In this document: piece by piece, positions 672 through 61,588 of the stretch
Layout: each line of letters opens with the position of its first letter
Numbering within the stretch: the stretch's first letter is position 1
NCBI GenBank assembly: GCA_034401795.1
Contig: CM067366.1
Span: 75,088,129 to 75,152,128 of the forward strand
Direction of reading: 5' to 3'
DNA: 64,000 bases
Origin: Chaetoderma sp. LZ-2023a
Taxonomy: Eukaryota; Mollusca; Caudofoveata; Chaetodermatida; Chaetodermatidae
Notes under the pieces: model-generated
Database searches by the model: none
What the model was told of the DNA's origin: nothing
Seen by the model: the letters and a program-made list of their open reading frames with translations, nothing else
Made by a program: the position numbers and the translations under genes

Positions 672-1333
672 CCAACATCCGTGAAAGAGCGTGCATACCA
701 ATCACTTGTCCGACCCAAAATCGAGTATGCTTCCACAGTCTGGGACCCACCAACATGTGATCTGGTAAACCAACTCGAAGCGGTACAACGGAAGGCAGCA
801 AGATTTGTTCTAAGTCGACCAGTCTACCTCTACCCAAGAGAGAGTGTCACAGCAATGACAAATCGCCTAGGATGGGAAACCCTTGAACAGCGGCGCATGA
901 AAGCCAATTCCATCATCATGTACAAGATTCTGCACAGGCAAGTAGCCATACCATCAGAATACCATCCCCAGTGGGCCAACATAAACACCACCAGGCGCAG
1001 CCACCCACTGAAGTTACAGCCATACCAAACAACAATCAGCCAGTACCACAGCTCGTTCCTACCCAGAACTGTGCCACTATGGAACAACCTGGCTGCAGAC
1101 ACAATCGCCGTCACGGATGTAGAACAATTCAAGATCTGCATCCGGGAGACGACCTTCTAAACTGAACGCGACGATGTAAATAGTGTACAGAAACCTTCAA
1201 TTGAACAATGAACAATTCTTAATTTTTAATTTTTAATCGTGTGGACTGTGAAACCCAGCCATGTTTACAAGGCACGCACCTAGGCGTGATGTCCTTTAGG
1301 ATTTTGTTTAGTATCAGTACAGATACAGATACA
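672..1333 (+). mobile_element. 3' end of a CR1/Jockey-group LINE
   Basis: An open frame from about 681 to 1160 encodes the typical C-terminal segment after RT: LVRPKIEYASTVWDP, LEAVQRKAARFV, LGWETLEQRR and FLPRTVPLWNNL. These motifs are shared by many CR1/Jockey-group LINEs. The RT palm is absent, so this is a 5'-truncated copy, the usual product of incomplete target-primed reverse transcription. The stop at 1158-1160 is followed by a 3' UTR of about 150 bp and a short tandem tail of CAGATA units at about 1315-1333. The tail abuts the end of a long inverted repeat. Clade assignment beyond the group is not possible from this fragment. Confidence 0.8.
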
Positions 1334-1978
1334 GAAGTGGATGATGGTGTGACTTAGTGATCCAAATAGGCAAGGGCCTCTCTTCCAAACTCAGAATTTG
1401 TTACTGGTAGAATGGTAAAGGTTTTTCAAAAAGTTTAACAACCTGCAAACAATCATTGCATATTGTTTTATTTATTGAGCTATTTAGACCAAATATATTG
1501 CCATGGAATAAGCTCATTTGGCCTCTCAGGTTTTTCAGACCAGATCAGCTAGAACTGAGATCTGCAGAAAACTAAATATTTTGAAATTAATTTGTCTGAA
1601 AGTGATTTAGGTCATGCGGTTTGAGCAGCTATATATCTTTAAATCAAATAATCCGACTGAATTAATAAAGAAACAAGGAGTTTTTGGTCTTGCTCACTCT
1701 GATTACAAATAAATCTGTTTTTAAGGGAGATTATATAAAGATTGTAGAATATCTTGAAAATAACCTGATTGACAGCTGTTTGCCCCTCTCAATGGAACAG
1801 CAGGTTTCAGTGAAACTGCTTAAAAATAGTTTGCCTCTTGAAATATCATGCACGTACACGGTCATTGTCATACAGGGTGAAATTGAATATTGTTTCCAAT
1901 GGTTTTATTAATTTGATAAATCTTTTTTCAGATGACAATTCTCACCTCAGAGGGATGTGTTACTAAATGTCAAACATT
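1334..1978 (+). repeat. Left long terminal inverted repeat
   Basis: Left arm of the long-TIR element. Landmarks shared with the right arm in inverse orientation include TGACTTAGTGATCCAAAT at the tip, TTTTCAGACCAG, AACTGAGATCTG, AAACAAGGAGT, GATTACAAA and TTGACAGCTGTTTGCCCCTC. Homology stops after CAAACAT near 1978. Unlike the right arm it has no MITE insertion; at the equivalent point it reads TGCCATGGAATAAGCTC. Confidence 0.8.
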
Positions 1979-2117
1979 AGTCCAGTAAGAAATGACAATG
2001 GACCCGGACATTTTAAGTAACAACCAGATTTTTGGCCAGAACTCTTCCATTGTATCTAAATTAAGACCACAAAAAATTCCCCATGAATCCCAATTGGGGA
2101 AAATGTTTTTTTTAGCA

Positions 2118-2578
2118 AAAATTCAAAATGGCCGCCAAAGTGGCTGAAAATTATACATTTCTAGATAGTTCAGTTACTATATAAGCTAGAGTGGCGATTA
2201 AAATCTCTAAAGTATTTTGACCGCCAAAATAGCCGAAAATTATACATTTCTAGATAGTTCATTTACCATATAAGCTAGAGTGGCGATTGAAGCCTCTAAA
2301 GATAATGTTTTGGGGTCATGGAATTGAATTCTGATATTATTTTTACAGAATAACACATGCTTATTGTGGTAATTTATTCAAAATGGTGGAAAAACGTCAA
2401 AATGGCCACCAAAATGGCTGACAATTTTACATTTCTAGATAGTTCAGTTACCATATAAGCTAGAGTGGCGATTGAAGCCTCTAAAGTTAATGTTTTGGGG
2501 TCAGGGAATTGAATTCTGATATTATTTTTACAGAATAACACATGCTTATTATGATAATTTATTCATCATAATTCACCT
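2118..2578. repeat. Subterminal tandem repeat, ~185 bp unit
   Basis: About two and a half head-to-tail copies, each containing TTCTAGATAGTTCA (at about 2159, 2248 and 2433), AAGCTAGAGTGGCGATT and, in the full copies, GAATTGAATTCTGATATTAT. The first copy is shortened. It lies just inside the left inverted repeat, between it and the 3' end of the internal gene. Confidence 0.8.
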
Positions 2579-2660
2579 GTCAGGATGGCAGATATAACTA
2601 AAATTATGCATGGTGCATAGAGTCAGCAAATTACGGCTGGCTCCATCAAGTAATATTCTG

Positions 2661-3368
2661 CTAAAGTTCAATGTGAGAATTTATATATTGCCCCTCGCAT
2701 TTGCAGTGTATGCTGCATGGAATTCCTCTCTTGGCACAAGTACAAGATACACAACACTCGCTCTTACAGGGGCATCTGATCTCTGCCAATATATCTGCTG
2801 GTGCTGCTGCTTAATCAGTGATTACCGGCACTACGGCATCACCTTCAATCTTGTATCCGAACTCTTCCTTTTGGAGAATCGTTTGAAGATGACGCCATGT
2901 GCTTACTTGGTGATGTACACGTAGCGAGTGATAGTACATAGCTCTGCTGGTAGGTGGCATTCTCTCAAAAGGTACATATTTGGATGATACCACATTTAAA
3001 TAGCGCAGTTCATCGAGTCCTTCAGCATTGGTTCCCCCTATGTACAAATTCTTTGCAAAATTTTCTCCTACCTTTAGAAGCACTTCTTTAGGTGTTTCTG
3101 TGTCACCAAAGACCAGCGCATCTGCGCGTAACTGCTGTGATGACTGGAGCAATTTCATGAGCTTCAGTTTCCCCACACCATACATTCCAGATGTTGTATC
3201 ACAGCCTGACATAGCATGAGCAAATGGCAAACACATATACATCTCTCTCCCTAACACCTCCTTTGCAACTTTAATGGCAATGGTATGTTGTCTTGTCTGC
3301 ATATAAACATGTTTCCCATAATTTGTGTGGTGGATAAACATTATCAGAATGTCTGTATCATCATCAGC

Positions 3369-3414
<46 letters not shown>

Positions 3415-4585
3415 TTTTCATATGTTTTTGCCAATTCCATTGCCTTCTTAACTATGCAGACATCAGCATCACCCTCTTCACCAGCATGCTCTACATGGGT
3501 GCCTGCCTTCTGAAGGTGCTGAGATACTAATTTGATCAAACCCTGCTTGTTCTTTTTGTTTCCAAGAAATGCCTTCTTGTCTCCAGGTATTGGTGTTTTC
3601 ATCTCCACAACAAATCTGGGAACATTTTCTCCTTTCGCTGTCGCTTTTGTTCCTGATCTTTTGTTGTTGCCACTTCATAGCTGTCAAACTCTACCCAAAG
3701 AGGAAGACCATATGAAGAATGGGAGAAAACAGAGTGGCCCAAACCAGTTTGTGCAAAAGAGCACATCCATCAAGCACTTTAGCTGCTGGTCCAACTGTCT
3801 CTGATGTGATTTCTGTATCCATCCCAAGTATACATTTAGCCATATCTGCCTTATTTGCTTTCCTCATACTCCCGTCATCTTTGAACAGTGCAGGCGATAC
3901 AGTTGCAAGTTCATGTGAAAACACACTTTTTTCAGGAGGGAAACCATTGACATATGACATGGACACAAATCGATGGTACAGCTCCTATGATGACATTCGG
4001 ACTTCATCACCAGATATTTTGAGGGGCCTTCGCATGGCAGCAAATGTTTTAGCTTGTTCTACCCTCTTAAACTTTACATCGTCAAATTTCTTCTCATTCA
4101 GTTTTTCTTGGATTGTGGTCCCAATTGGACTGTGGTTATGGTGTACGCTCACATGAAGTCTCAGTTTGACATGCAATTAAACCCATTACATGTGTGGCAT
4201 CATGCCCTGATTTTGTATCTTCATTATAGTCAAAGTTGTCAGCTACCCACTGAAAGAAACCGCCACGTTTGCTGACTTCAACTAGACCAGATATTAATGA
4301 ATCCACTCGCTTTCCAACAGCTGCACTCTTTTCAAACTGCAGAATCTGAGTATACGATATACATAGACCTAAGGATGACAGAACATCAATGAGCACCCTT
4401 GATCGTGTTGTCTGCTTGATAAAGAGGTCAACTGATAACATAAGAGGTGATATGTATGATTGTTGGCCTGTTGCCTGCATGAGGATGTGGAAACAATGAA
4501 GGTACTAGAAGTTGCTTCTTCATGTTGGCTGATTCACTTCTTGATTCAAAATACTCAATAGAATATTCATTACTGTACATCATAA
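2661..4585 (-). pseudogene. Decayed gene: SGCDTTSG / Cys-rich-tail protein
   Basis: Read from 4585 down, several frames together give one protein. The N-terminal part (4480-4136) has LQFEKSAAV and FFQWVADNFDYNEDTKSGHDATHVMG. The middle (3608-2811) has EGDADVCIVKKAMELA, an aspartate motif DDDTDILIMF, and HAMSGCDTTSG. The reading ends at an in-frame TAA (2811-2813), after which the same frame continues to 2661 with CPCKSECCVSCTCAKRG, a Cys-rich tail. There are frameshifts near 3690, 3980 and 4140. The pairing of an EGDAD motif with a DTDIL motif recalls PIN/FEN-like nuclease cores, which is only an inference. I recognise the layout as a multicopy invertebrate family of unknown function. A microsatellite has added a run of valines. 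The gene is probably carried by the surrounding long-TIR transposon. Confidence 0.6.
3368..3412. repeat. (CAA)15 microsatellite inside a coding pseudogene
   Basis: Fifteen CAA units. On the minus strand they are read as GTT and give a run of about 15 valines just before the DDDTDILIMF motif. A hydrophobic beta-strand is expected there, so the expansion probably grew out of a few genuine Val codons. Confidence 0.95.
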
Positions 4586-4804
4586 AGAATCTGTCATTTC
4601 TGGGCTATGAGGGTTAAATGGTTAACACTTTGAACTCTGAATATCAGGCTATGAACTCTGAATATCAGGCTAAACAAATTATTCTGGATGAAAGAAATAT
4701 TATGTTGACTATTGTATTTTAACTAGATTCAAGATTCTTTATTTTCATATAGATAAACAATTTAACAGTTCAAAACAGGCATATTTCCAAAACAGAAAGT
4801 TTAA

Positions 4805-4964
4805 CCCTCATAGCCCAGAAATGACAAAATCTGTATTAAATGCAGAGTAATAAATATTATATTAAATATTTTGAAACTAATTTGACTGAGCTGCCACAGA
4901 TTCGAAATATTCAATAGGCTTCCTGTATAGTTGTCTTGAAATTGAGACACTGACATTGTACGGG
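4805..4964. repeat. Short TTAA-flanked element (MITE-like)
   Basis: Flanked by TTAA at 4801-4804 and 4965-4968; starts CCCTCATAGCCC and ends GTACGGG. Inside is the dispersed motif TTTTGAAACTAATTTGACTG. An inverted copy of the left end (CCCTCATAGCCCAGAAATGACA) lies at 4613-4592 next to TTAA at 4614-4617, so a second element end faces this one. The TTAA target and CCC termini suggest a piggyBac-like origin. Confidence 0.6.
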
Positions 4965-4968
4965 TTAA

Positions 4969-5464
4969 ACTGGTATCACTATTATCAGCCTAAAATGTCC
5001 ATGTACCTTGTGCCCACGAGAACCTGGTATTACCATGAGGAATATGTTGTCTGGTCTTTGGGCTTTGAATGAGTTAATCATAATGGCTTGAAAATAACCT
5101 GTTAATCACTGAACCATCCAAAATAATTTCTACAATGGTCTTGAGAAATATCTCTTTGTAGGCCACAAGACAATTTTTTAAAATTAATACTAGAATGGCT
5201 GGTTCATAACAGAACTAGTCATTAGTGTGGTACAATTTGAAAAATAGCCTCCTCTTGGCCTGTAAATAGACAGACAGGTGAGATTTCAATATTCCAAAGT
5301 TTTTTCAAAAAATGAGTGGGGATAGAAAATCTGCTGCCCAAGAAGTAAATCACAAGTAAATTCACTGGAAAGTAGTTCAACAATCAGCTTGTAAGTCAGG
5401 AAATCTGAGCAATCTATTTCACGCTGGACCCCGTGCTCAATGAGAAAATGCTGTCACAGAAAAC
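4969..5464. other. Degenerate foldback-MITE debris
   Basis: No gene. From about 5040 to 5290 the sequence is an eroded copy of the foldback MITE seen at 48424 and 53563, recognisable by TGGTCTTGAGAAAT, AATGGCTGG and CTCTTGGCCTGTAAAT. The remainder is unrecognised A+T-rich sequence. Confidence 0.45.
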
Positions 5465-6665
5465 CACAAGAGGCCCACGGGCCTGTGATGCTCACCTGGA
5501 CCATTAGCATTTGAACAATTTACATTTAACCCTTTAATGGTCATGCCGGCCAAAAACGGCCTCTGTCATGGTCTTGTGGAATGTCCATTTACAGGTCAAG
5601 AAAATACAATTTTTGAAAATGTACCACTGGAATTACAGTAGTAAATTTTCAAAAATTGTATTCTCTTATGCTGTAAATTGACATTCAATAGGCAGATATT
5701 TAAATGTTCTTGACCTAATTTGACCATTAAAGGGTTAAATAGACATGATGAATAGTTTTCGAAAAATCCAAAATGTCCACCAATGAAATTGACCAATCAA
5801 AATTCATGTTTGGTATGTTGATGCCTACCACCATAGGATCATTCCCCTCGTTTCATTGAAATCGGACCATTAATTACGGAGTAGCGTTTTAAAATGGTTC
5901 TGGAAAATTTTGAACAATCCAAGATGTCCTCCAAAAAAATTGACCAACCATAATTCTGAATACAAGTTGTAGAGCATACCATGATAGAATCCTTCCAGTA
6001 AAATTTACTTTAAATGCGAGAAGCGGTTAATGAGTAGCGTCTTGACAATTCCCATTAAACTTCTCATAAAATCTAAGATTTTCACCCCAAAAATTGACCA
6101 ATTAATTCTGAATAAAAGTTCTGGAGCATACCCAAATAGGGTCCTTCCAGCCTACTAGGGTTGACATCCGTCAAGCGATTAGTGATGAGTAGTGTCTCGA
6201 CAACTTCCAGTAAATTCTTCATAAAATCTAAGATTTTCACCAAAAAACATGACCAATCAAAATTCTGTACACATCTCTGAAGCCTATAGCCATAAGGTCC
6301 TTCCAACCAAATTAGGCTGAACTCCGCCAAGCGGCTAATGAGGAGTAGCATTTTGACAATTTCTGGTAAATTTTTCATAAAATCTAAGATTTTCACCCAA
6401 AAAAATTAACCAATCAAAATTCTAAAAAAAAACCCGGAGGGTGAACTCCGTCAAGCGGTTAATGAGGAGTAGCATTTTGACAATTTCCGGTAAATATTTC
6501 ATCAAATCTAAGATTTTCACCCCCAAAAATTCTGGTGAAAAACCCTGGATGGTACCAGTATATGATCATTCCATCCAAATCTGGTTGAAATCAATCAAAC
6601 CGTTAAGGAGGAATTTGACGGATGGACGGACGACTGCCATGGCATAAGCTCATCAGGTGAGCTAA
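5465..6665 (+). mobile_element. Pearl/HINE-like element 1
   Basis: Starts ACAAGAGGCCCACGGGCCTG followed by TGCTCACCTGG, and ends GGCATAAGCTCATCAGGTGAG then CTAA. The core consists of about five diverged units of ~150 bp with the recurring phrases AATCCAAGATG, GACCAATCAAAATTCTG, GGTTGAAATC and GAGGAGTAGCGTTTT. No protein is encoded. An ACAAGAGG start, a tandem core and a hairpin plus CTAA end are what is known for mollusc pearl elements and Helentron-derived HINEs; the class assignment is inferred. A TTAA MITE (5530-5734) sits inside, near its 5' end, so the MITE is younger. Confidence 0.65.
5530..5734. repeat. TTAA foldback MITE (piggyBac-like)
   Basis: Target duplication TTAA at 5526-5529 and 5735-5738. 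The termini are inverted: CCCTTTAATGGTCA on the left and TGACCATTAAAGGG on the right. The arms fold back around a centre near 5640 (AATACAATTTTTGAAAAT against ATTTTCAAAAATTGTATT). No coding capacity. Inserted in pearl-like element 1. Confidence 0.85.
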
Positions 6666-6690
6666 TAATGACATTTTGGTGACATGGTCA

Positions 6691-7524
6691 TGTTTGACAT
6701 TAGTAAAGCATCCCTCTGAAGTGAGAACTCTCATCTGAAAAAAATGTATCTCAAATTAATAAAACCAGTGGACACAATATTCTGTTATGACAAAACCATT
6801 TCATTCTGTATAACAGTGTACAACATAGATGATATTTCAATAGGCAAACTATATTTAAAACAAGTTCACTGAAAGCCGCTGTTCCATAGAGGGGCAAACA
6901 GCTGTCAATGAAGTTATTTTCAAGATATTCTACACTCATATCATCTCAGATTTTTTTGTAATCAGAATGAGCAAGACAAAAACACTCCTTGTTTCTTTAT
7001 TAGTTCAGTAAGAGTATTTGATTTACGGGTACAGCTCAAACCTCAAGATCTAAATGACTTTCAAACACAAAAATTTCAAAATATTTAGTTTTCTCCAGAT
7101 CTCAGTTTTAGCCCAGCTGGTCTGAAAAGCCTGAGAGGCGAAGTGAGCTTAACCCTTAGCGCTCTGATGTCAATATATCTTTTTACTGTGTTAATAGCAA
7201 AGAAACTGGTGTACATTTTCCAACAATTTTGGTGGAAGATGTTGCTGTCTACGACAGCACCATCTTCCAACAAATTTGTTGAAAAATAAACACCAGTTCA
7301 TCTTTTACTTTAATTTGAAAATTTATAATTTTGACATCAGAGTGGTACGGGTTAATGTCATGGCAATAGATCTGGTCTCGATAGTTCAAAATAAATAAAA
7401 CACTAGGCAATGTTTGTTTTGCATGTCGTAAATTTGGTGAAAGACATTAACCTTGAGCTAATTCTGAGGTTGGAAGGCAGGCATCTGACCATTTGGATCA
7501 CTAAGTCACACCATCCTCCACTTC
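6691..7524 (-). repeat. Right long terminal inverted repeat
   Basis: Inverse copy of 1334-1978, ending GTCACACCATCCTCCACTTC at 7524. Without the 199 bp MITE and its extra TTAA it is about 630 bp, close to the left arm. The empty site in the left arm defines the MITE insertion point exactly. Confidence 0.8.
7153..7351. repeat. TTAA MITE with internal hairpin, inside the right TIR
   Basis: TTAA at 7149-7152 and 7352-7355. Termini CCCTTAGCGCTCTGATGTCA and TGACATCAGAGTGGTACGGG are imperfect inverted repeats. The interior holds a strong hairpin, TGGAAGATGTTGCTGT / ACGACAGCACCATCTTCCA. No coding capacity. A different family from the MITE at 5530. Confidence 0.85.
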
Positions 7525-10500
7525 ATGCAAAGCCTATTGGCTGAATGCGCTATTATTGGTGACCATTCAAATTTAATTAAGAAAATTGACCGTTGACATG
7601 TCCTGAGCCAGAGAATCGTCAGCGAGAGTATGAGGAGTCGGGTACCAACCTATTATAAGTTTGGTTGCATTTTCCCGATCAGGCAAAGATAAAAATAGCT
7701 TTTCAGGTCTTATGCCAATAAAAAATAATAGAAAGTTATATGTTGATTGATTTTAACCCTAAATAAACAACTGACCAATGCACACGCTTACTTAACATAC
7801 ATAATATAGCCTAAATAGCGGAATGACAGTTTTTTTGTTGCTGAATTAAATACATGTGCATACATAAAACAGACACACGTAGGTCAGCTAGATCTTTCTT
7901 ATCTGTCTAAAACAAAAATTGTATCTCTCCGGCCTGTCAGTCTGTCCAAATATCTGTCACAGGGGCGGATTGAGTCCGAGCAGACCCGGACTAGCCTAGA
8001 GGGTGGGTGTGTAATTAGAATCACGCAAAAACAGCAACAGCTACGAAAAACCAATGCGGCAGATTTTTCTCGGTTTTATGTTTCCAGACATGTTTGAGAA
8101 GACGATTGCTTCAATGGCGATTTTGGCTCGATAGAAATGTGCGTGAACAAAATTAGCCTGTAAATGACAAGATAATTTAATGTACAAGTGTGTGAGTTTT
8201 TAAAGCTTGGCATATACTCATTTTCGAGACCAACTGTTTGTAGGTTTTATCAGAAACCCTTCTGGTTTTACCTAACATGCATTGGCTTGTGTCACTAGTA
8301 AGATTACAGTTGAATATGTGAAGAAAAATAATCAGAATTAATTATATGACCGTAGCAATGGTTGGATGGTGGGTGGGAGGTGTATGGGGTGGGATGGGGA
8401 AGGTAGGTGGGGTGGGGAGGGGCTGCCAGTTGGGGAATCGACGGGCCTGCATATTTTCACGTTAGTGCAAAGCATATTTTGAGAAATTAAGACCGGGCTT
8501 ATTGAAAATTAATACCGGGCGATAAAACAAGTATTCAGTGTGATGGAAGCACATAAATAGTTGCAGATGAACGAATTCATAGGAAGACTGACATAACGAT
8601 TATCGATCGTCTCTCTTTCAGTTCACGCGGACGTCAATGAAAGCTTATAGTAAACAAACTATTTTGACAGTCTTCGACGCGTAAGCTAGCCAACGTAAAT
8701 TTGTGCAATGTTAATAAACGTAGGCCTACCTAATTATGACAATTTAGTTCATCTTACCCACCTGTTATAAATTATTATATAATAACACCCCCCACCCCTC
8801 CCCCCCCCCCTACCCCCCAGCGAAATAGGATTAAAAATGTTCAATGGTTTTCCAGTAGGCCTATATCTGTCTTGCTATATAGTGTTCTTGCTGTATGACG
8901 CCGCAACGACTGGCGAGCCGTGTAACATGTTTTCAATGATCAGAAATGTAATCTTATTTATGATTCATATTGATGTATTAAATATTGTTGATTATTTTAA
9001 AACTAATATGACTGTCATCGGCAGCCGGTACAGCAGTAGGTTCCAGCGAAATAGGTTTCAAATTTTTATCTGTCTATATATATGGGCACTATCATTTCAA
9101 TAAACTCATGCATACGAAATATGTGGGATAGGTGTAACGTGTTTTCACGTGTCAAAATTTAGGATAAAAAAACAATTTATTTAACAGGTAACATGTGGCT
9201 AATATTTTGAACAAAATTTGACTAGGACTGGCAGACTGACAGCAATATGTTCCAGTGAAATACGTTTCAAAATATTCAGCATTGTGTATTTCAATCCTTC
9301 ACGGAAAGTACTGGATAATTATGCATAAAAGTTAGCTCCAATCTCACGCTGAAAGTAGTTGCTGTCAACGTTAATTGGTTAAGGGATTTATTTGTATGAA
9401 GAAATTGTACAAGTTTTGGCGTTAAAATCGCGGCGGGATTTGTATGAGTGTACGCATTGTTATCTCGCCCCCACCCCCGCTTGGATAATACGTACCCTAA
9501 TTGCTGGAAACCATTACAATGGTAGCTTATGTCCGCCTGAATACACATCTAAGACTAGACATATAAAAAACCACAATGATGATTCCTCTGTCCAATAAAC
9601 TATCAGTTACGATTGCAACGAATCAGAATGAACATGTATTTTCACGTTGTCTATCAGATTCAAGTAGCAGATCAGTCTGTAATAAACTTCTGACCCTTAC
9701 GGACGCAAACTTGCTAGACTCAAAATTATCTCAAATTTTTCACAAATTTCTTTGCGTGTGTCAGATTCAGGTAGCTGATCAGTCGGTAATACACTTTTGA
9801 CCCTTACAGACTAAAACTTTTCTCAAATTTTCCACAAATGCCTTTGCGTATTAGACATTCTTGTTTCAAAGATTTCCGTACCTCTTGAGAAACTCATTTG
9901 TAGTGAAAATAATCAAACGTGCGAAATGTTTCAATTTTATTTATTTGCTAAGTGATAGTTTCAAAATTCAGCGTATCATACGCAAATATAAATTGTTGAA
10001 ATCTTATACTTTTAGAGGCTTCAATTGCGTAGCTAAATATGATGAAAAGAAGGAAATCAAATTCACAACTAAAAGTATTATTAATTTATACATAATGAAA
10101 TCTCACTTGTTAAGATATCTTACTTAATTTTATTTTCAGGCATTTCGCGTGTCAATATGCACATTTAAATTTGAAATATGCGTTTTAATGTTAAGCCGTT
10201 CTGCATAAGTTAGATATTTACACAACCGTTTCAATACAGCTTTCTGACGGTACCTGAACAAACCCCACACAAATTATATAAGTCAAATTAGATAGGAACT
10301 CCTAGTAGGAAACATATAATATTTATAATATATATTGTAACTTATAGAATATTCGTAGCGGATAGTAGTTATTGTTAGGCTTATTAGGAATACTATAGCG
10401 GTCATTTTCGTCCCTACCGCGGTCATTTTAGCTCGCGGTCATTATGGACTGAGATCGTCCGCCCATATCTCCCCAAACGACCATTTGGAGGGGACACGCC

Positions 10501-12436: not shown

Positions 12437-14377
12437 ATGGAGGTAGCCAAATCCATCAGTGAAGCAACTCCAAACACCAGGGTACGTCAACTCCCAAAAA
12501 CGTATTCACCTTCAGTTCCTAAAGGGAACGGAGATAATTATCGTTAAATGGGTTTCAGATTAAATAAGGCGAAGGCTATGAAGAAGAAAATAAATGCAGC
12601 AAACCGGTCTTGTCCTATCGACATTCAATATAAGCCCAGAAATCTTGTCATAGACCTCTCTGCAGCTGCTTATGAAGCCTACAGAGTTGCGATTACCAAC
12701 CATCTGAACGACAATACCAAGATATCGTGTAACACTACCTACAAAAGAGATCGTGATGGCCTTACTATCGAAGACTCCATTGCAGTCAGACCCATGTGGG
12801 ATGGCCGCCAACTCTTTAGAGTCAATCTCTACCATACTCAGGGTAAGGTGGTCATAAATGGTGTTAGCCTACACCAGTTCATATCTATAGACTTGCCTCA
12901 CATTATAACAGCAATAAATAGCACCTCAAACCTAGACGAGGTAAATGACCAAATCCGGGAATTCTGCCACAGATACCTGATAAACCAGTCATCCAGTACC
13001 AAGGACAATGACTTGCGCCATTCTCCGCCATCAATTCAGTCAGGCAGTAATCCTAGTATCAGTACATCTCAGCTATGGTCATCCAACCTCACCTTGAACA
13101 ACCATATGACAGCTAGCCCAAAACAGCCAGATCATGACACAAATTCTGTTGAAATCATCATCACTAAGACTACCGGCAATCCTAGCAAGAGGAAGGAACC
13201 AGTATCTAGTCCACTCACGCCAATGACTCCTGGAAATAGTGCCTTAACGGGACCAACTTCATCTCATACGTGTCCAGCAAATCTGAACACCTCCAATGAC
13301 AATGCCGACACCTCGGACTCGTGCCTACACTGTCAACAACACGTTCTATCCAGCGCTGTATTATGCGAGACATGTGACAACTGGATACATTATCGTTGCG
13401 AAGGCTTATCTCCAAGCGCAGTTACAAAACTGGAACAAGATAAACATCCATACACATGCTCCTCTTGCTCACTTTTGTTAGAACAGGACACCAGAGAAGA
13501 TGAAGTAGCGAAAATACCAAGCCCGTCCGATCACGATCAGCTGAACCAAACAGCCCAGCGATGCGATGTGCCACCCAGAAACGAAACTGTCATCACAGGT
13601 GAAACTATAGCACTTAGTGCTCCCATCCCAGAAGATGCAGCAAAAAACTAAAATGTCAATTCCACAGACTCGCTGATAAGATCACTGTCACTCGAAGCCA
13701 AAGAAAAGCAGTTAAAAGCTCAGGAAAGGTCGCTAAAAGCTAAACAAATCCAGCTCAACAAACAGCAGGAGGAATTCAGTGAGCAATCATCCCGCCTTGA
13801 AGAACTTATGTCAATAGTCAGTAACCTAGAGTCCAAGATTAACACTCTGTCAGAAGAGAACCGCCTACTAAAACTTAAAGTGGTGTCTCAAAATGACATA
13901 CAAACCTTGGCAAATGCTCCATCTCAGACACCTTATTCTCCATACGGCTATATGTGTCCACCATGGTTACTTCCAGCATCAGGCTTCCAGTGTTTTTCAC
14001 CACCTCAGCCGCCACATCTTGGGTTTCCTCCGCCACCACCCCCAGCAGCTGGATACCGGAATTTTCCACAATCTCAGCCGCCTCTAGCAGCGGGGTACCA
14101 GAGCTTTCCATCACCTCAGCCACCAGCACCAGCTGGATACCAGAGCTTTCCACCATGGCCACCTATCCCACCATGCTGTCACCAAAACCACTATATGAGT
14201 CAACCTAATGTACCATCTCATTCAGGTCATATGGACACCCTGGTTGCGTCACTGACAACATTAACTACCGCTCTGATCGCAAATGTCACTAACAGTACTA
14301 TGCAACTGCAGAAACCTAATAGGCGGGTAACTTCGGAAGAGTCTCACACCAGAATCAAACTAGACAGAAGGATTTGA
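12437..14377 (+). pseudogene. LINE-A ORF1 (PHD finger, coiled coil, Pro-rich)
   Basis: The ATG at 12437 has a strong context (CACCATGG) and is in frame with the rest, so I take it as the original start. In-frame TAA codons lie at 12545-12547 and 13649-13651. About residues 90-160 form a conserved LINE ORF1 segment (FRVNLYHTQGKVVINGVSLH), also seen in LINE-B. Residues about 295-345 are a C4HC3 PHD finger: CLHC, CETC, NWIHYRC, CSSC. After the second stop come a charged coiled coil (EAKEKQLKAQERSLKAKQ) and a Pro/Gly/Tyr-rich repeat (AAGYQSFPSPQPP). In such LINEs ORF1 is the RNA-binding chaperone; the PHD finger is presumed to bind protein or chromatin. Confidence 0.85.
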
Positions 14378-17300
14378 ACAAACCATCAACAACATTGCCA
14401 ATGACACTGTCCGATTCCACATGCAAACTCTACCAGAATGAATCTCAGCCAGTGCCTAGCAACGGGCTACAGGATGCAGCTTCCAACTGTCGCGTAGTCG
14501 TCAAACCAGTAGCTGTAAATATAACGAGCGAAAGTCAAGCTCTGTCAGAAAGTCATCAAAACCAAGACGTACCCTCCAGAGTCATAGCCACAAATAATCA
14601 GACCAATAAATCAGAGGTTCTTCATCTTCTAACTCCGACAGACGAACAGTCAGCGCCTGTGTTTGACAATAATAATGAGTCAGAAAGAACATTCCCGCCA
14701 AATACCTAACCAATCATCCACAGATAAACAATATTGCAGTGAACAAGCCTCGCTAGATAACAACTAACAGCAAGTCTCACCGGCTCCAAGTAACATTCAT
14801 TTTTTAGTCTCCTCAGGGGACAGACAATCCACCACCCCACAGAAACGACTAGACACTACACATCTCTCTGATGTATACCTAAGGATTGTTTCCTGTAACA
14901 TTGAAAATATCACCAGCAACATCGCCTATGTGGAGGAGCTATTGAAAGGAAACCAAACCATCCTCTGCCTCCAGGAACATTGGCTCTTTAACTACCAAGC
15001 AGATCATATTTGCAAAGCATTTCCATCACATGAAGCAGCCATAAAGTGTTCAGACGATGATGACCCTCTACCTCCCTCGTATAGACCTAGAGGTAAAGGC
15101 GGGGTTGCAGTCATCTGGCATAAAGATCTGTCATGGAAAATTGAAGTATTACCGGATGGCAGTAACAGAGTCCTAGCAATACGCATAAGTACAGAGGAAA
15201 CACCCTTAGTTCTCATTACCACCTATCTGCCTTGCCAAGGCTCTTCAGACCAATACAACTATAAAAGCATCTTGGATGAAGTTTTTGAAATTCGAGAACA
15301 GTACAGTGATGTACTTTTTAAGGAATTCTGCACTTCTGCAGCCTTCAGTGTCTGATAAAACCACAGATTGCCCAACATATTACCACTTTTCAGGGAACAT
15401 TACATCCCATATTGACCACTTCATTGAACCGACGGATCAAGAAACAATAATCACAGATATTGTAGTTCACACAAGAAACGTTATTAACCAGAGTGCACAC
15501 GACTCAGTCACTGCAACCTTATCACTAACAATACTCCCAGGGAGGGTAAAGAAGATAAACTGCCCTCCGCAACCACGCGTTAATTGGTCAAAAGCAAATC
15601 TGGAGAATTACAAGTCATTGACTACGACCAGACTTACCAAGGTCTTAAAGGACTGCCCGCCAGACACTTCTCCAGATATCATACTTCAAGCCACTAACTC
15701 TATTCTAAAGAAGACCACTCTTCAGTGTGATCCTACATATGCTAAACCTCCTCGCCGTAGGACAACAACTAAATGGAACTCGGCACTAAAACCGCTAGTC
15801 TCTAAAGCGAAAGCTGCGCACTGGGCCTAGAAGAAGGGAGGCCGTCCTACAGACAAAGTCAACCATTTAACTAATAACAGGATGCCCTACGTCATGCTCA
15901 ACGCCAACTGTCAGCTGACTTGCGTAACAATCTTCACAGTGCTATCATGTACATGTCAACACATGACAAACAATCCATATTTAAACTTGTACGTAAACAT
16001 CGACCTGGTAGCAGAGCATCAAAAATGTCAGCCATCGACTTCAAGCAGTTCTCTTCAAGAATATCAGAATATCAGAAACTGAAGGGTGGGCCAACTACTT
16101 TGAGGATTTGGCTACTGCCAAGCATCATCCTAGTTTCAGTGAAGACGCAAACAACTCTGCTAACATGATCCATGCTCTCCTTAGCTCGTTGCCATCAAAC
16201 GAAAATGCTGTTCAACTGCTCACAGAAGCTGACACAGAGACATATTGATTCAATGAAAAAGGGTAAAGCTGCAGACTCATTTGGCCTATCGGCGGAGCAT
16301 GTGAAGTTTGCCTCTGAGGAAGTAATAAGTGTCATCACATGTCTAATTAACGGAATACTGAAACGGGGGACGATTCCAGATGGTATGAAATTGCGCATCG
16401 TATCACCAATCTTGAAGAAAGGAAAACCAGCAAACAATCCAGACAGCTACAGGCGTATTACGGTTACATCCCTTTTAAGCAAGTTGCTAGAGAAAGAACT
16501 TCTGAAACGGTCAAGGGCAGTCTTGGACCCAGAACAAAACAAGCTGCAATTTGGATTCACCAATAGATGCGCTTCTACTCATGCAGCCTTCTTGCTTACT
16601 GAATGCTTAGCTGAGGCAAAAGATAGTGCGTTGCCACTGCTTATTACATTCATGGATGCTTCAAAAGCGTTTGACATAGTCTGGCACAAAAGCATGCTGA
16701 ATGCAGCCTCTACTCAAGGACTAGATGGCAGACTATGGGAGCTATTTAACAGCATGTATACCGGCATCACATCAGTAATCTAGTGGCAGGGGAATGTATC
16801 TAGAGCCTTCATTGAAGAACTCGGCATCAGACAGGGCGCATACACATCTCCTGATCTCTTCAAACAATGTAGCAACCCATTACTGAATAAACTGACAGCT
16901 CATCCAGGTGCATTTCGCATTGGTTCTATTCCTACTGGCGCCATCATGTGTGCAGACGACCTGGCCATTATCTCCAGGAGTGCCTTTCAAATGCAGCAAC
17001 TATTGAATATTGCAGAGCTCGATGCATCAAACGAGCGATACCTGTTTAGCACAGCAAAGACCAAAGCTATGGTCCCAAAAACAGCACCTGGTAAATCTTC
17101 AGATACAGTTCTTCATCTTAATGGAGCTGAATTGGAACTTTCCCCAGAGGAAACACATTTGGGAATTCACAGATCAAATAATGTAAAAAACAAGTCAACA
17201 ATCGTTGCACGTATTGACTCAGCACGCCGAGCAGCATACTCGCTGATGGGCGCCGGAATGCACGGTCTTAATGGGATCAACCCAATGACATCCATCAAGC

Positions 17301-20794: not shown

Positions 20795-22651
20795 GCCAAG
20801 AAGTGGTGATGATGTGTCCAGCAGCGAGAATGATGATGACCCGGATTATGATCAGGATACTGAAATTGATGCCGTGATGCTGGCGGTGGTGGTGTTGGTG
20901 GTGATCAGGATGTTCGTTCGACAGCTCGCCCACGTCATAAGCAAACAGGCACGGTTCTGACGCGCAAAAGAAAACATGACCCGATGGCATGGAAGTGTAA
21001 CATTCGTAGAACACTTAGACAAACTGGGAGGCAATACACTGATGGTCGGGGGAAGTTGCAACCAGACAGATTTGTTACATGCAAAAAGGACTGTAGTAAG
21101 TGTAAGTTAAAATGCAATTTAAATATTAATGAAACTGATAGATCAGATATATTTAAGGAATTTTGGACACTAACTGACAATGAGAAAATGCATTTTTATG
21201 GCAAAACTACAGTGAAGGACACAACAAAGAGGTCAACAGTAGCAGCTGGCCACCTCAGTCGTAAGAAAAGCAGTTTCACATACTACTTGCCATGCCATGG
21301 TACAAATATTCGTGTTTGTAAGGTATTCTATTTAACAACGTTGGCCATTAGTCAGAAACGCGTTTTTACATATCATTCATCAAAACATGTCATCGGTGGA
21401 ACACCAAAGCGTCTTCTGTGGGGACAAAGTGCTAACAATATGGTACCACCAGGCTTTAAGGATGGAATACGGGAGCATATAAACTCGATTCCCCGGATTG
21501 TATCACATTACTGTAGGGCAGACACCAAGAAAGAATATTTTGACCGTGGCCTTTCTATTGCTCTTCTCTATGAAAAGTATACTGCTAAATGCATTGAAGC
21601 AGGTAAAACACCGGGAAAACTGCACATGTACAGGCACATATTCAATTACGAGTTCAATATTGAATTCCAAACTCCTAAAAAGGATAGATGTGATGCGTGT
21701 GAAGCAATGAAAATGAATAAACAGCCTAGTGAGGAAGAGAAAGTAGCTCGTGAGAAACATTTGACAGGCAAGATAGAAACTAAGAATGAAAGAGACAATG
21801 ATAGAAATGATAAGGACGGTTTCATTGTTTGCTTTGACTTACAGAATGTATTTGCGTTGCCAACAGCAGACGTTTCTAACTTTTTCTATCGACGAAAGCT
21901 TAATGTAAATCACATGACTGCTCATTGTTCAGCGGATAACAGAGGATATGGCGCGTTGTGGCATGAAGGTCAGAATGGGCGATCTGGAAACGATCTAGCT
22001 AGTTCTGTTATGATGCTACTAGATGCTATTGTGGAGAATAATGTTAATGACCCCAGAATTAAGCACATAACACTTTGGAGCGATTCGTGTGTGCCACAAA
22101 ATCGCAACAGCATATTTTCAACAGCAATTAAAGTATTTATGAAACGCCATCCCGAGGTGCTGTCTATTGTTCAGAAATTCTGTGAGCCAGGACATTCTAT
22201 AATACAAGAGGTGGACAACCTACACAGCCAGATTGAACGGGTTTGTACCACTAGTGAAATATATAGCCCAGTTGGACTGCTAAGACTACTTAAAAAGGTT
22301 CGGAGAAATAAACCCATGAAACTGATACAAATGAAATCTGAATACTTCAAAGATTACCAAGCAATAGCTAAGCAAGGGCAATATCAAAGGATTCCATACA
22401 CTAAGGTCAAGGGCCTCTTGTATAAACAAAATGAACCAAAAGTTGTAAAATATAAGCTGCGCTTTTCCGATGAGTGGATTTCACAAAATGTAATAGAAAG
22501 TAAGACTACTAGAGGTGTAGAATTGTTTCAGATAAGCGATCCTAAGATAGCCAAACCAACGATACTTGCTGCGGCTAAAAAGTCAGACATTAGGGACATG
22601 TTAAAGTTCATGCCACCTGAGGATAGGGCATACATGACTCTACTGGTGTGA
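20795..22651 (+). CDS. Sola-like transposase, exon 2 (one frameshift)
   Basis: The acceptor TTTTTCCTTGCAG ends at 20794. The first about 80 bases (PRSGDDVSSSENDDDPDYDQ, acidic) are in frame with exon 1; one shift near 20875 puts the rest in the frame of the 555-codon open stretch from 20984 to 22651. Features: a Cys cluster (CKKDCSKCKLKC), a C-x2-C motif (KKDRCDACEA), then the likely catalytic acidic blocks CFDLQNVF, LWSDSCVPQNRNS and GHSIIQEVDN. The DLQ / SD..xxQN / EVD order is typical of a DDD/E transposase family common in invertebrates. The long intact frame suggests a fairly recent insertion. The alternative, an uncharacterised non-Sola family with the same 4 bp target, remains open. 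Confidence 0.75.
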
Positions 22652-29396: not shown

Positions 29397-30903
29397 AACA
29401 AGAGGGCCAAGGGGCCTGTATCACTCTGGACCATAGGTATCTCAACTAGAATGGTCATTAACAATAAGTAGAACTCTAGTGAGCTGAGCAGACATGTAAC
29501 AAAAAACAGAGGCCATGTTTCTTTATGTATCAACTTCTCTTGAACAACTTTAATGGCCCATAGTCATCAATATCATCTCCTAAACTTCAGTCCGATCACT
29601 TCAGCAGTTCTGGAGAAGTTGTTTTCTCGAAAACTAGGTCATCCAAGACAGTCACCGAATGAGTCGGTAAATCAAGTTCACAAGTGAACAAATTTGGTTT
29701 AGGGCTTGCACTAGATGATATTTTATGAGTTCTGAATCGATCCCTCAAACGGTTTCGGAGAAGTTTTTTAAAGATGTTTCCTAAAATCGACCAAAATCCA
29801 AGATGGCCACCGGCCCAATTGGCCGATCGGCTTCGTTTGAACAAACTTGAATCTCTATGCCCTATGGATGCATCCTGCCAAATATAACTGAAATAGTTCC
29901 AGTAGTTATCGAGAAGACATTTTAAACTTCCCATTGCTTTAGTATGGGAGCGTTTGGCTGGAAAATGATCCAAGATGGCTGCCAAACCGCTTATCTGACT
30001 GTTTCAAAAATTGCAAATTTGAGATCAGTTTTTGAAATCTGTCAAGAAACTAAGGAGGAGATGTGTTTTGACAGAAGTTTTTTACCACACAATTTAAATA
30101 TAAAAAATCTGAAGAGGTTCTAAAGCCTACCTTCATATGATCGTTCTAGCCAGATTTGGTTGAAATCTGCAAAGAAACTAAGAAGATGCATTTTGACACT
30201 TTCAGATAAATTTGCAACAAAATCTACATCTAAAGCCAAGAAACAAAGGAGTAGCGTTTTAAAGCAATTTGACAATTTCATGCGAAAATTGCAAATTTGA
30301 GATCAGTTTTTGAAATCTGTCAAGAAACTAAGGAGGAGATGCGTTTTGACACTTTTTGGTAAATTTTAAACAAAATCTAAGTTTTTTACCCAAAAAATTG
30401 AAATATAAAAAATCTGAATAGAAGTTCTAGAGCATACCTCCGTATAATCGTTCTGGCTAGATTTGATTGAAATCTGCAAAGAAACCAAGAAGATGCATTT
30501 TGACACTTTCAGGTAAATTTGCAACAAAATCTAAGATTTTTACCAAAAAAATTGAAATATCAAAAATTTTAATAGATGTTCTAGAGCCTATGTCGGTATG
30601 AACCTTCTAGCCAAATTTGGTTGAAATCTGTTAAGAAACTAAGGAAGAGATGCGTTTTGACACTTTTCAGTAAATTTTAAACATAATCTAAATTTTTTAC
30701 CCCAAAATTTTAAATATAAAAAATCTGAAGAGAAGTTCTAGAGCCTACCTTCATATGATCGTTCTAGCCAGATTTGGTTGAAATCCGGCAAGCCGTTAAG
30801 GAGATACATTTTAAAGCAAAAGTTGATGGACAGACAGGCGGATAGACAGACGGATGGTCGGCATGGCATAAGCTAACTTGGCCATTCTGGCCAGGTGAGC
30901 TAA
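29397..30903 (+). mobile_element. Pearl/HINE-like element 2
   Basis: Starts AACAAGAGGGCCAAGGGGCC and ends with the hairpin GGCCATTCTGGCC, GTGAG, CTAA at 30900-30903. Core units of about 150 bp carry CCAAGATGGC, GGTTGAAATCTG and AGATGCGTTTTGACA. A run of GACAGACGG-type words precedes the terminal hairpin. No coding capacity. Confidence 0.7.
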
Positions 30904-36152: not shown

Positions 36153-36451
36153 GTGCATAAATATTTATCCTGTTCATATTCATTCCGCCGAGACCCTCTG
36201 CTTTCATGTATGGATAAGTGTAAATTAACTGTAAGTCTAAATATATACAATGTCGAACAAAATGTTAATTTTGTTCCTGTCACTGAGAGTTTGGCTCCAG
36301 TATCTCAGTTTCAAGGCATTAAAGAAAATGGTTCTTTTAATGTACATTTTAACAAGCTCTCATATCCTGTTCAGAGTACTGAAAGGATTAATATCTCTTT
36401 TAGTCATATTAATGATATTAATGATTGCCTCAAGGATGTTGGTGGTGGTAG

Positions 36452-36492
<41 letters not shown>

Positions 36493-39400
36493 GTGGTGGT
36501 GATTATGATGATGGTTGTTGTGATGATAATGTAGGTGGTGATGATGATAATGATGATGATTATTATAGTTGTCATGGTAATGTTGGTGGTGATGGTGGTG
36601 ATGGTGGTGGTAATGATGATGGTGGGGGCGGTAGTGATGATTGTTGTGATAATAATGGTGGTGGTGATGATGATAATGATGATGATGATTATAATTGTCA
36701 TGATGATGAGGATGATGACTGTCATAATGATGATGGCGACTGTCATGTTGTTGGTACTAACGATACTTTGACAAAGCCAAAGAATTTCTTTATGTATATA
36801 ACTTTAAATTATTATTTAGATGATAATTTACTTCATTATAACAATGTCCTATCATATATCGTGTATAACTCTCAAATCACTCACGAGACACCTTATTATC
36901 CAGATTTCTTCAAAATTCCTAATATCCCAATCAAATGTACCACTGACATGACTGATGCAAGCAATCATGAAACATCGTCATTCATGTCTTTGAACTTATC
37001 CAAGAAGGGCCTCAGTGTGATTCATTTAAACATTAACCATATTCTACAAAAAATGGATCAACTGAACTTAATTTTTAAATGCAACTCAGAAATTGATATA
37101 TTTGGGATATCTGAAACATTCTTAATGCCTAATATCAGACGAGACATGATCCAAATTAGTGGCTATCAGGCAGTAAGAAAAGATCGAACTAAAAACAAAG
37201 GTGGTGGGTTTCTTGTATGCATATCAAATAACATACAACACTCAAGAAGAAAGGATTTAGAATCAGATGACGTTGAAACAATATGGATAGAGATACGAGT
37301 TTGTAGCAAATCACACTTAATTGGATTTATCTACCGTCCCCCAGATTCACCTGTACATTGGTATGTTGAATTTCAGGACATGTTTGAACGAGTCTACTCT
37401 CAAAATAAAGATATAACTCTTTTAGATTTTAATACTGACGTTGTACATGACCAAAATGGAAAATGGCATAATATTGTTGATCAGTTTTCTTTAAAACAAA
37501 TAGTAAAAGAATCTACTCGTCTTACAGCAACATCAAGCAGACTTACCGAACACATCTATGTTACTAATGAAAGAAATATAGCAAATTCACATGTACCAAC
37601 ATTAGCACTCAGTGATCACTACCCCATATGTGTAACAATAAAGAGTAAGAAACGCAATCTAAAATATCACCATGACACAATCACATATAGATCAACAAAG
37701 CATTTTAATGAGGAATTATTTCTATATTATCTTTCTAGGCAACCAAGGAATATTATAGCCACATTTACAGACCCTAATCAAGCTGCTGAATACTGGAACT
37801 CACTATTTCATGATACACTGAATTTATGTGCTCCGATGCGACAACGTAGAGTAAAGCGCTTGCAAAAACCTCAATGGCTAAATGAAGATATTTTGCATGC
37901 GATGGAAATGAGAGATTCAGAATATCAAAAACAAAATGGAGAACAATATAGATATTGGCGAAACAAAGTTAATGGACTTATAACAAAAGCCAAATGCAAA
38001 AACGTTGAACAAATGCTTGAAAAACACCAGGACACACCACAGGCAATATGGAAGGTAATGAAAATGCTCAAGCCTAATTATAATGACACATCTGGAATTG
38101 ATAACTTAAATGTAGACGGAAGACTAATTAGTAACCGCTCTGATATATCGGAACATTTTAATAATTTATTTGTTAATGTCGCAAAAAATCTTAACCTGCC
38201 AATCATCCGTAATTCGTCTGATTATCTCAATAAATTAAAAAATGTGGTAGAGAGCAAACTTCCTACTAATGCAGAATACTTTATACCTTATATTATTATG
38301 CATTTTGTTTTCAAACAACTATCTACTCTCAAGACAAATAAGGCTACAGGGCTTGATAACATAAGTGCTCACTTCCTAAAACTCTCAGCCTCAGTTATTG
38401 CGCAATCGTTAACTCAGTTAATAAATCTAAACATCAGCACCTCAACCTTCCCAGACTGCTGGAAGATGGCTAAAGTCTTTCCATTACACAAGTCTGATCT
38501 AAAGACTGATGCAAAAAATTATAGACCCATATCCATTCTTCCAGTAATATCAAAAATATATGAATGTCATGTTTACAATGCACTCTATGATTACTTGACA
38601 CAATATGAATTACTGTCTCCCTATCAGTCAGGTTTTAGGCCAAAACACTCCTGTGAAACTGCTTTGCTGAATCTGGTAGAACAATGGCGAAAGTCTCTGA
38701 ATGACAAGCTCACTGTTGGTAATATAATGATCGACCTAACAAATGCTTTTGATTTAATGGACCATGATCTTTTACTTAAAAAGGCTGCCATCTATCAACT
38801 AAATCCCGAGGCCATTGGCTGGTTACAATCATATCTCACTCATCGTAGACAATGTGGGCCATTGGAAATAAGGTGTCTCATCCAAAAAACATAGTTTCCG
38901 GTGTTCCACAAGGCTCTAATTTAGGGCCCATGTTATTTGTTCTATTTATCAATGATTTACCTCTTATTGCTACTAATTACACCCTAAATATGTATGCAGA
39001 TGATACAACAATTCATACTCCTAAGAAATGTGTTCAGGAACTTGGTACTTCATTACAGGATGCTCTCTTAGATGTTGCTAATTGGTGCAGTGCGAATAAG
39101 ATGTTAATCAATAGCAAGAAAACAAAAGCTTTATTCATATGTAATCACGGTAAAATAGACTCAGACACTGATGTCATGCTCCAGCTAAATAATGCCACAT
39201 TAGAACAAGTCAGTAACTTCAAACTCTTGGGTGTGCCTGTTGATTGTAATTTAAAATGGAAAACACACATAGATAATTTATGTAGAAAAATAGCTGGACT
39301 ATTAGCTTTCATGCGAAATAATATTAAATTAATGAAACAAAAATGTCGAATCATGTATTATAAAGCTTATATCCTTCCACACTTGAATTACTGTCTTACT

Positions 39401-39823
39401 GTTTGGGGTAACTGCCCTAAAACGGAATCTGACAGACTACTGAAACTTAAAAAAAGAGCAGCAACACTTATTCTTGATGCAAATAAAGACACACCTAGTG
39501 CAGACCTGTTTCAGCGATTAAAATGGCTTCCATTTTCTGATTTAACATATATTCGCACTGCAACAATGGTATACAAGTCTCTAAATGACCAGACACCACA
39601 GTAGCTAAGAGATATGTTTAAATATACATCAGAGGTACATAGTCGGTCACTCAAATCTGTAACAAATTCTAACCTATATATGGCCATGTCTAAAACTGAG
39701 ATTTAGAAGAATGGCTTTGCTTGTACGGGCACAAAAGTTTGGAACAGCCTACCCATTAATGTACGTGAAGCAACCTCACTAGCAGCTTTCAAATTTGAGC
39801 TTCGGGCCCACGTAGCCAGATAA
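36153..39823 (+). pseudogene. LINE-B ORF2 (endonuclease and RT)
   Basis: A 913-codon frame (36153-38894) then a second frame (38852-39604 and on to 39823). The N-terminal part is inflated by a GAT repeat coding Asp and Gly. Endonuclease from about 37010: VIHLNINHILQKMDQL, FGISETFL, KGGGFLVCIS, GFIYRPPDSP and LALSDHYPI; the usual GDFN reads LDFN. RT from about 38320: KTNKATGLDNIS, KNYRPISILP, SGFRPKHSC, DLTNAFD, VPQGSNLGPMLF and MYADDTT, the catalytic YADD. A frameshift near 38870 separates the last two blocks. After in-frame stops at 39602 and about 39704 the C-terminal motif TKVWNSLPINVREA remains. Near-complete but dead. Confidence 0.85.
36454..36752. repeat. GAT/GGT microsatellite inside LINE-B ORF2
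   Basis: About 300 bp of GATGATGAT and GGTGGTGAT words kept in frame, read as Asp, Gly, Cys and Asn. It sits between the ORF2 start and the endonuclease. Confidence 0.9.
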
Positions 39824-59499: not shown

Positions 59500-59908
59500 A
59501 ATTTCGGCCTGATCCATTCAGGGGTTCTGGAGAAGTCGATTTCTCTAAAACTATGTCATCCAAGATGGCCACCGAAGCATTAGATCAGTCAAGTTACCTT
59601 GCACAAACTGGGTTTAGCTCTTCGCCTAGATGATATTTCAGGAGTTTTAAATCGATCCTAACAAGTGGTTTCGGAGATCTTTAAAAGACGTCTCCTAAAA
59701 CCCGCCAAAATCCAAGACGGCCACCAGCTAAATTGGCTTCCTTTGAACAAACAACATCTCTATGCCCAAAGGATGCTTCCTGCCAAATATAATTGAAGTT
59801 GGCCCAGTGGTTCTTGAGAAGAAGTCGTTCAAAGGAAAAGTTGATGGATGGATGACGGACGGTCGCTATGGCATAAGCTCACTTGGCCTTTCAGGCCAGG
59901 TGAGCTAA

Positions 59909-60289
59909 TAAATAGCAATCGGTTACAATATATATATATATATATATTGATACTACGCTTTATTTTGCGGATGATGATCGATGATCATGATGATGATGAT
60001 GATGATGATGATGGACGAAGACAATGACGAGGACGACGATGATGACCGAATTACATTCATCACAGATTTCCACTCACATAGCATACTGCTAAAGACAATT
60101 GTCAACAGACACTGGGATCTGATCAAACCTAGATCTAAATCTAAGACACACATTTACACAAAAAACACTATACGGTTATAGGAGATATCTCACCCTCACA
60201 GACCAACGGGTGAAGGCAAACATCACATATCTTGACACAAGAAGATATCAAGGCAATTTTATTCCACATAAAATAGAACTATGGCAGAA
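59909..60289. other. Spacer with microsatellites
   Basis: A TA run at 59930-59947 and GAT/GATGAC runs at 59970-60045. No gene. Confidence 0.6.
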
Positions 60290-61588
60290 ACAGAATTGTG
60301 CATTCCGCCAAAATACAAGTTCTGAAGCCCACCGCCCTAGGCTTGTTCCAGCCAGTATGGTTGAAATCGGCCAAGCAGTTAATGAGGAGCAGCGCTTTAA
60401 ACGATTTTCAGCCATTTTTCGGAAAAATCCAAGATGCCCACTGATCAAATTGATCTATCAAAACTGTATACAAGCTCTGAAGCATACCACTTTAGGGTCC
60501 TTTCAGCCCAGTTTGCTTGAACTTGTTGAAGCAGTTAATGAGGAGTAGGCTTTCAAGTGATTTCCAGAAATTTTCAGAAAATCCAAGATAGCCACCTGAA
60601 AAACTGACCCATCAAAATTCTATGTACAAGTTCTGAAACCTACCAGCCTTGTATCCTTCCAGCCAAGTTTGGTTGAAATTGTGCAAACAGTTCATGAGGA
60701 GTAGCGTTTTAAATGATTTCCAGCCATTTTTGGGGAAATTTAAGATGGCCACCGAAAAGATGGACCGGACCACTCAAAATTCTGTATATATGTTATGAAG
60801 CATACTATGCTAGGGTTCTTCCATCCAAGTTTGATTGAAATCGGCCAAGTGGTTATCGGAGAGTAGGCTTTAATCATTTCCATAAATTTTCAGAAAATCC
60901 AAGATGGCCACCAGAAAAACTGATCAATCAAAATTCTGTATACAAGTTCTGAACCATACCAGTGTACGATCCTCCCAGCTAAGGCTGGTTGAAATTAGCC
61001 AAGCAGTTAATGAGGATTTTTAGCGTTTTAAACGATTTCCAGACATTTTTCAGAAAATTCAAGATGGGCGCCGAAAAAATGGACCAATCAAAAGTTGGTA
61101 TATATCTTCTGAACCATACTAGGCTAGGGTTCTTCCATCCGAGTTTGAATGAAATTGGCTAAGTGGTTATCGAGGAGTAGGGTTTTAAGTGATTTCCAGA
61201 TATTTTCAGAAAATCCAAGAATGCCGCCGGAAAAATTAACAAATCAAAATTCTGTATACAGGTTCTGAACCATACCAGCATACTATCCTCCCAGCTAAGT
61301 CCGCTTGAAATTGCCCAAGCAGTTTTAAAAGATTTCCAGCCATTTTTTTGGAAATTTCAAGATGGCCACTGAACAAATTGACCAATATATACATGTTCTG
61401 AAGCTTACCCCCATAGGGTCCTTTCAGCCATATTAGGTTGTAAGCAGCCAAGCGGTTAATGAGGAGTAGCATTTTTAAGCAAAAGTTGACGGCTGGATGC
61501 CAAATGGATGGACAGCCGGATGGACAGACTGATGATGGATGGTCGCCATGGCATAAGCTCACTTGGCCATTCTGGCCAGGTGAGCTAA
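60290..61588 (+). mobile_element. Pearl/HINE-like element 5
   Basis: About eight units of ~150 bp (AATCCAAGATGGCCACC, ATCAAAATTCTGTATACA, GGTTGAAATCGGCCAAG, TTAATGAGGAGTAGC) end in GGATGGACAGACTG words, GGCATAAGCTCACTTGGCCA, TTCTGGCCAGGTGAG and CTAA at 61585-61588. The 5' end is not clear. No coding capacity. Confidence 0.7.

Follow-up and report, generated by a model that had tools for sequence, protein, structure and literature searches.

We analyzed a stretch of 64,000 nucleotides from the genome of the mollusc Chaetoderma sp. LZ-2023a (GenBank assembly GCA_034401795.1, contig CM067366.1, positions 75,088,129 to 75,152,128 of the forward strand; hereafter the window, in which positions are counted from the first base), and focused on an element with long terminal inverted repeats (TIRs) at positions 1334-7524. 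The outer ends of the two arms lie exactly at 1334 and 7524, where both start with GAAGTGGA, and the shared sequence runs inward to 1977 and 6690, respectively. In the MAFFT alignment, the arms were 83% identical with a Kimura two-parameter (K2P) distance of 0.19 over 622 ungapped columns, a count that takes in a few inner flank columns of the arms. When positions 1001-8000 were compared with the window by BLAST, the arms matched each other at 79% over 487 columns (an E-value of 7e-118) and at 77% over 175 columns (an E-value of 2e-29), and these values rule out chance as the source of the similarity. The left and right flanks outside 1334 and 7524 showed no alignment with each other. Within the 64 kb, the long arms were paired by BLAST solely with each other, and no second copy of an arm was found. 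The inverted arms of approximately 640 bp, proposed in an earlier model-made reading of this DNA (the sequence-only reading), were recovered with the same ends and a left arm of 644 bp.

The right arm is longer than the left arm due to a palindromic insert of 207 bp that resembles a miniature inverted-repeat transposable element (MITE), and the arm alignment displays the uninterrupted left arm as the corresponding empty site. As this palindrome is nested in one arm and the other arm retains the empty site, it is younger than the arms, and the later MITE noted in the sequence-only reading was confirmed. We take its TTAA borders to suggest a MITE of the piggyBac or Kolobok type. The interior of the element comprises a decayed gene on the minus strand, tandem repeats, and a second later insert, which we presume to be Helitron-like (Table 1). 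The co-terminal arms, the later nested insert, and the decayed gene between the arms altogether provide good support for a TIR transposon. The arms and the minus-strand gene in the sequence-only reading held up, but the Helitron-like insert and a pair of inverted arms overlapping the 5' end of the gene (4545-4618/4800-4875) had been overlooked.

Table 1. Features identified in the element at positions 1334-7524 of the window.
Feature	Position	Strand	Remarks
Left TIR	1334-1977	+	644 bp; outermost bases GAAGTGGATGATGG
Tandem repeats	2132-2565		Periods of 89 bp and 185 bp; just inside the left arm
Gene of the element	~4585-2661	-	Open pieces in three frames; in-frame stop ahead of the tail
Cysteine-rich tail	2664-2810	-	Past the in-frame stop; sub-threshold likeness to the tesmin/TSO1 CXC domain
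FEN1/XPG-like piece	2814-3668	-	Single open frame; EGDAD, DDTDIL, SGCDTTSGMYGVGKLKLMKLL
Middle piece	3691-3966	-	Contains VLDGCALLHK, candidate first FEN1-type aspartate block
N-terminal piece	4136-4480	-	QWVADNFDYNEDTKSGHDATHVMGLIA; no Pfam or NCBIfam family above the cut-off
MITE-like inverted arms	4545-4875		Arms at 4545-4618 and 4800-4875; overlap the 5' end of the gene
Helitron-like later insert	~5465-6665 (start approximate)	+	Tandem units of ~156 bp; 3' end GCATAAGCTCA..AGGTGAGCTAA
Right TIR	6690-7524	-	835 bp, nested palindromic insert counted in
Palindromic MITE-like insert	7149-7355		207 bp, in the right arm; TTAA at both sides; 74% to its own reverse complement

The three-frame layout of the gene is likely due to frameshifts, albeit introns may be another cause. 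Its acidic motifs, EGDAD, DDTD, and GCD, followed by GVGK, are arranged in the order known for FEN1/XPG nucleases. A CAA microsatellite (3368-3414) translates as a run of valines inside the FEN1/XPG-like piece. The cysteine-rich tail matched the tesmin/TSO1 CXC domain (PF03638) with an E-value of 0.45 and 11.3 bits, below the cut-off of 23.5. No family in Pfam or NCBIfam was found above the cut-off for the gene pieces, and the search against PDB yielded nothing of note. The motifs LGLCISY, VADNxDxN, and LPPTSRA together with the CXC-like tail presumably belong to one long protein family, which we take to be common in cnidarians and molluscs, with the middle part missing here.

To examine the order of the motifs, five archaeal FEN1 chains were used as the source of active-site blocks, which were scored as ordered chains on DNA. 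In the first run with six blocks and free frames, the gene scored 75.2, whereas the second-best place in the window reached 54.8, and none of 300 regional shuffles reached the score of the gene. The last four blocks alone gave 53.2 for the gene against 40.4 elsewhere, again with none of 300 regional shuffles reaching it (the shuffle maximum was 49.4). In the second run, in which four blocks had to lie in one frame, the gene was the top match on both strands of the window with a score of 56.6 (HAGEEGDADVCIVKKA, DDDTDILIMF, AMSGCDTT, and YGVGKLKLMKLL); the next best place scored 41.6, and none of 30 whole-window shuffles reached 56.6, with a maximum of 47.4. The nuclease reading relies on this one-frame score of the second run. 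Judging from the motifs alone, the gene is likely a relic of a FEN1/XPG-type nuclease. The gene and the FEN1/XPG (Rad2) family have the order and spacing of the acidic motifs and the G(I/V)GxK motif in common, whereas the gene differs from the family in having no profile match, an additional cysteine-rich tail, and a broken reading frame.

Altogether, we regard the element as a single copy, old and dead, of a DNA transposon with long TIRs that encoded a protein with a FEN1/XPG-type nuclease domain and a cysteine-rich C-terminal tail, which most likely worked in the manner of AcademX; our confidence in this reading is moderate. AcademX belongs to the Academ transposons, and its nuclease is of the XPG type. 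According to PMC10045372, Academ consists of two lineages, AcademH with target duplications of 9 or 10 bp and AcademX with those of 3 or 4 bp, and the difference is attributed to the helicase and nuclease that they encode. The sequence-only reading regarded the transposon as undescribed, but AcademX has already been named and described with a nuclease and duplications of 3-4 bp (PMC10045372). Rather than a new kind, the element is probably the relic of a lineage that already bears a name, and AcademX is the best fit. Both AcademX, compared here by its published description only, and the element possess a nuclease-like gene, that of the latter at the level of motifs. On the other hand, AcademX generates the 3-4 bp duplication stated in that description and this copy has none. 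Another difference from AcademX is that no DDD/E core was seen in the open pieces of this copy, the gene of which was possibly deleted in the middle. As both the duplication and a visible DDD/E core are missing from this copy, we do not assign the element as a member of AcademX. After subtraction of the two later inserts, the element is ~4.8 kb in length, which is compatible with, but not specific to, the mean of 5565 bp given for curated Academ elements of molluscs in PMC10294476.

If the element worked as AcademX is supposed to, its protein would bind the long TIRs, and a DDD/E core would cut the transposon ends and then join them, while the metal-dependent nuclease domain would process the other strand or flaps. 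The arms and the gene would have moved as a single unit. The DDD/E core, which was not seen in this copy, may have been lost between ~4150 and 4075.

Eukaryotic transposons in which an accessory nuclease or helicase accompanies a DDD/E transposase are likewise found in the Kolobok lineages KolobokD, E, P, and H (PMC9587614), and neither XPG nor FEN was found in the text of that paper. Our literature search found nothing that joins Academ with XPG or names the peptide GCDTTS.

Several observations weigh against the nuclease and AcademX-like reading. FEN1 was picked for the motif test after the likeness had been noticed by eye. In the first run, blocks 2 and 5 were placed on stretches other than those expected (the latter in a wrong frame with a stop), and the score of block 4 was raised by the valines of the microsatellite. 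Blocks 4 and 5 were shortened for the second run after the first result had been seen, in order to remove these faults. With free frames in the second run, the minus strand gave a score of 56.2 at 61066, nearly equal to that of the gene, and the shuffle maximum was 52.4. When a 285-amino acid piece of the gene with the valine run masked was aligned with the same five FEN1 chains by hhalign, the score was 17.1, and 200 shuffles reached up to 26.6. No transposase domain was recognised in the open gene pieces scanned against Pfam and NCBIfam. No target duplication, the presence of which the sequence-only reading had suggested checking, was found at this copy, as the element is preceded by TACA and followed by ATGC. 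Neither the arms nor the gene was found when 201,000 bases of the same genome were sampled as 21 stretches from the 192-Mb contig 1. The best tblastn E-value for the gene in this sample was 0.19; the sample is too small to call the family rare. Motif scans of viral and genome contig collections detected no homologue of the gene either. As for the PIN/FEN-type nuclease guessed in the sequence-only reading, the motif order and the block scores are in its favor, but Pfam, NCBIfam, and hhalign are not, and the AlphaFold2 model of the 285-amino acid piece, made without an alignment, was too poor for use with a mean predicted local distance difference test (pLDDT) score of 36.5.

In the contig collections, a protein-pattern scan of the viral contigs gave one match, which was not confirmed, and a degenerate DNA motif for GCDTTSxxxGxGK gave none. 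The single match to GCDTTSxxxGxGK in the genome contigs, a Dyadobacter record, had a stop within the motif and a tblastn E-value of 0.055. Four viral-contig matches to ADNxD(H/Y)N had a best tblastn E-value of 0.61 for that piece, and one viral-contig match to a looser GCDT motif had stops nearby, as judged by eye on one translation. We regard the Dyadobacter match and the matches to ADNxD(H/Y)N and the looser GCDT motif as chance.

Among the alternatives, the one that survives best is a long-TIR transposon outside Academ, namely an independent lineage that had a transposase of its own and carried an XPG-type nuclease. The lack of a target duplication at this copy, the failure to see a DDD/E core in the open pieces, and the gene pieces with no library family above the cut-off are all in line with such a lineage, but AcademX has been described as nuclease-coding with fitting traits (PMC10045372), and the decay of this copy is too great for any difference to show. 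We consider a separate lineage unlikely. A stronger version, in which the gene family represents a long-TIR superfamily of its own, unrelated to Academ, with an XPG-type flap nuclease and a CXC-like tail as the core of transposition, appears to us rather improbable. We are similarly doubtful of the idea that the locus is no transposon at all but an inverted segmental duplication or a fold-back structure flanking a gene relic by accident: the two outer ends share GAAGTGGA as the point where the similarity stops, and the arms enclose a gene that bears nuclease motifs, even though no target duplication was found and neither the rest of the window nor the 21 sampled stretches yielded the arms again. 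Polinton/Maverick elements have TIRs of hundreds of bases, AG...CT ends, a 6-bp target duplication, and genes for PolB, a retroviral-type integrase, an ATPase, and a protease. A deleted Polinton/Maverick, of which an accessory nuclease alone remained, is very improbable. The TIR length fits and the ends can be read as AG...CT two bases in, but on this reading TACAGA and TCATGC agree at only two of the six positions of the expected duplication and differ at four, and the Pfam scan of the gene pieces revealed no family of polymerases, integrases, ATPases, or proteases.

The surroundings and the inserts of the element were examined as well. A sequence with an ACAGAT repeat, which we take to resemble the 3' end of a long interspersed nuclear element (LINE), adjoins the left end of the element, and the original left flank may have been lost because of this LINE-like tail. 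No reverse-transcriptase match was found in Pfam for 681-1160 or 199-681 in the left flank. Inside the TIR, an AT-rich stretch of 20-32 bases, TAAATATTTTGAAA(C/T)TAATTTG, occurs at 1572-1603 and, in reverse, at 7061-7087, and a like stretch is present at 4863-4889. The stretch within 1572-1603 matched 8 of the 21 sampled stretches in both orientations with E-values up to 0.01, and possibly belongs to a small dispersed repeat. Other BLAST matches in the 201-kb sample comprised 48 to the Helitron-like insert, 6 to the MITE, and 22 to parts of 4601-5464, as well as short arm pieces of 20-38 bases, one arm piece of 84 bases and another of 82 bases at ~73%, and two 28-base matches to the 5' end of the gene. 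In the window, BLAST detected DNA similar to the Helitron-like insert at ~30.3-30.8 kb and 60.3-61.5 kb. Complete 3' end motifs of the insert lie at 59871-59908 and at 61551-61588 and a variant form lies near 30893, and further copies of the tandem-unit repeat are seen at 30310-30903 and 59871-61588. In the region of 4545-4618/4800-4875 and 4880-4930, the peptide IEYFES is encoded on the minus strand on either side of the inverted arms, as though part of the gene start had been duplicated around the insert.

Elsewhere in the window, reverse-transcriptase frames (PF00078) were found in 36153-39604 and 16172-16783 (E-values of 1.5e-12, 1.1e-15, and 6.8e-09), which are probably remains of LINEs. 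Upstream of the frame at 16172, a 367-amino acid open frame (12548-13651) had a borderline match to a PHD finger (PF00628, an E-value of 1.2e-4, 22.4 bits versus a cut-off of 24). A 555-amino acid open frame (20984-22651) had no Pfam match at an E-value of 0.01; its cysteine motifs and WSDSCVPQNRN give the impression of a mobile-element protein only.

In sum, the element is a real, old, and decayed TIR transposon, heavily broken up by interruptions; it contains a relic of a FEN1/XPG-like gene and most likely worked in an AcademX-like way. If the gene family belongs to AcademX, the element would be one further decayed copy of that lineage; if not, an XPG-type nuclease would have been put to use by transposons a second time, independently, and a single copy cannot decide between the two. 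The element is of modest interest unless its relatives turn out to possess a different transposase. More generally, a transposon with a flap nuclease of its own would be informative on the treatment of the second strand during transposition.

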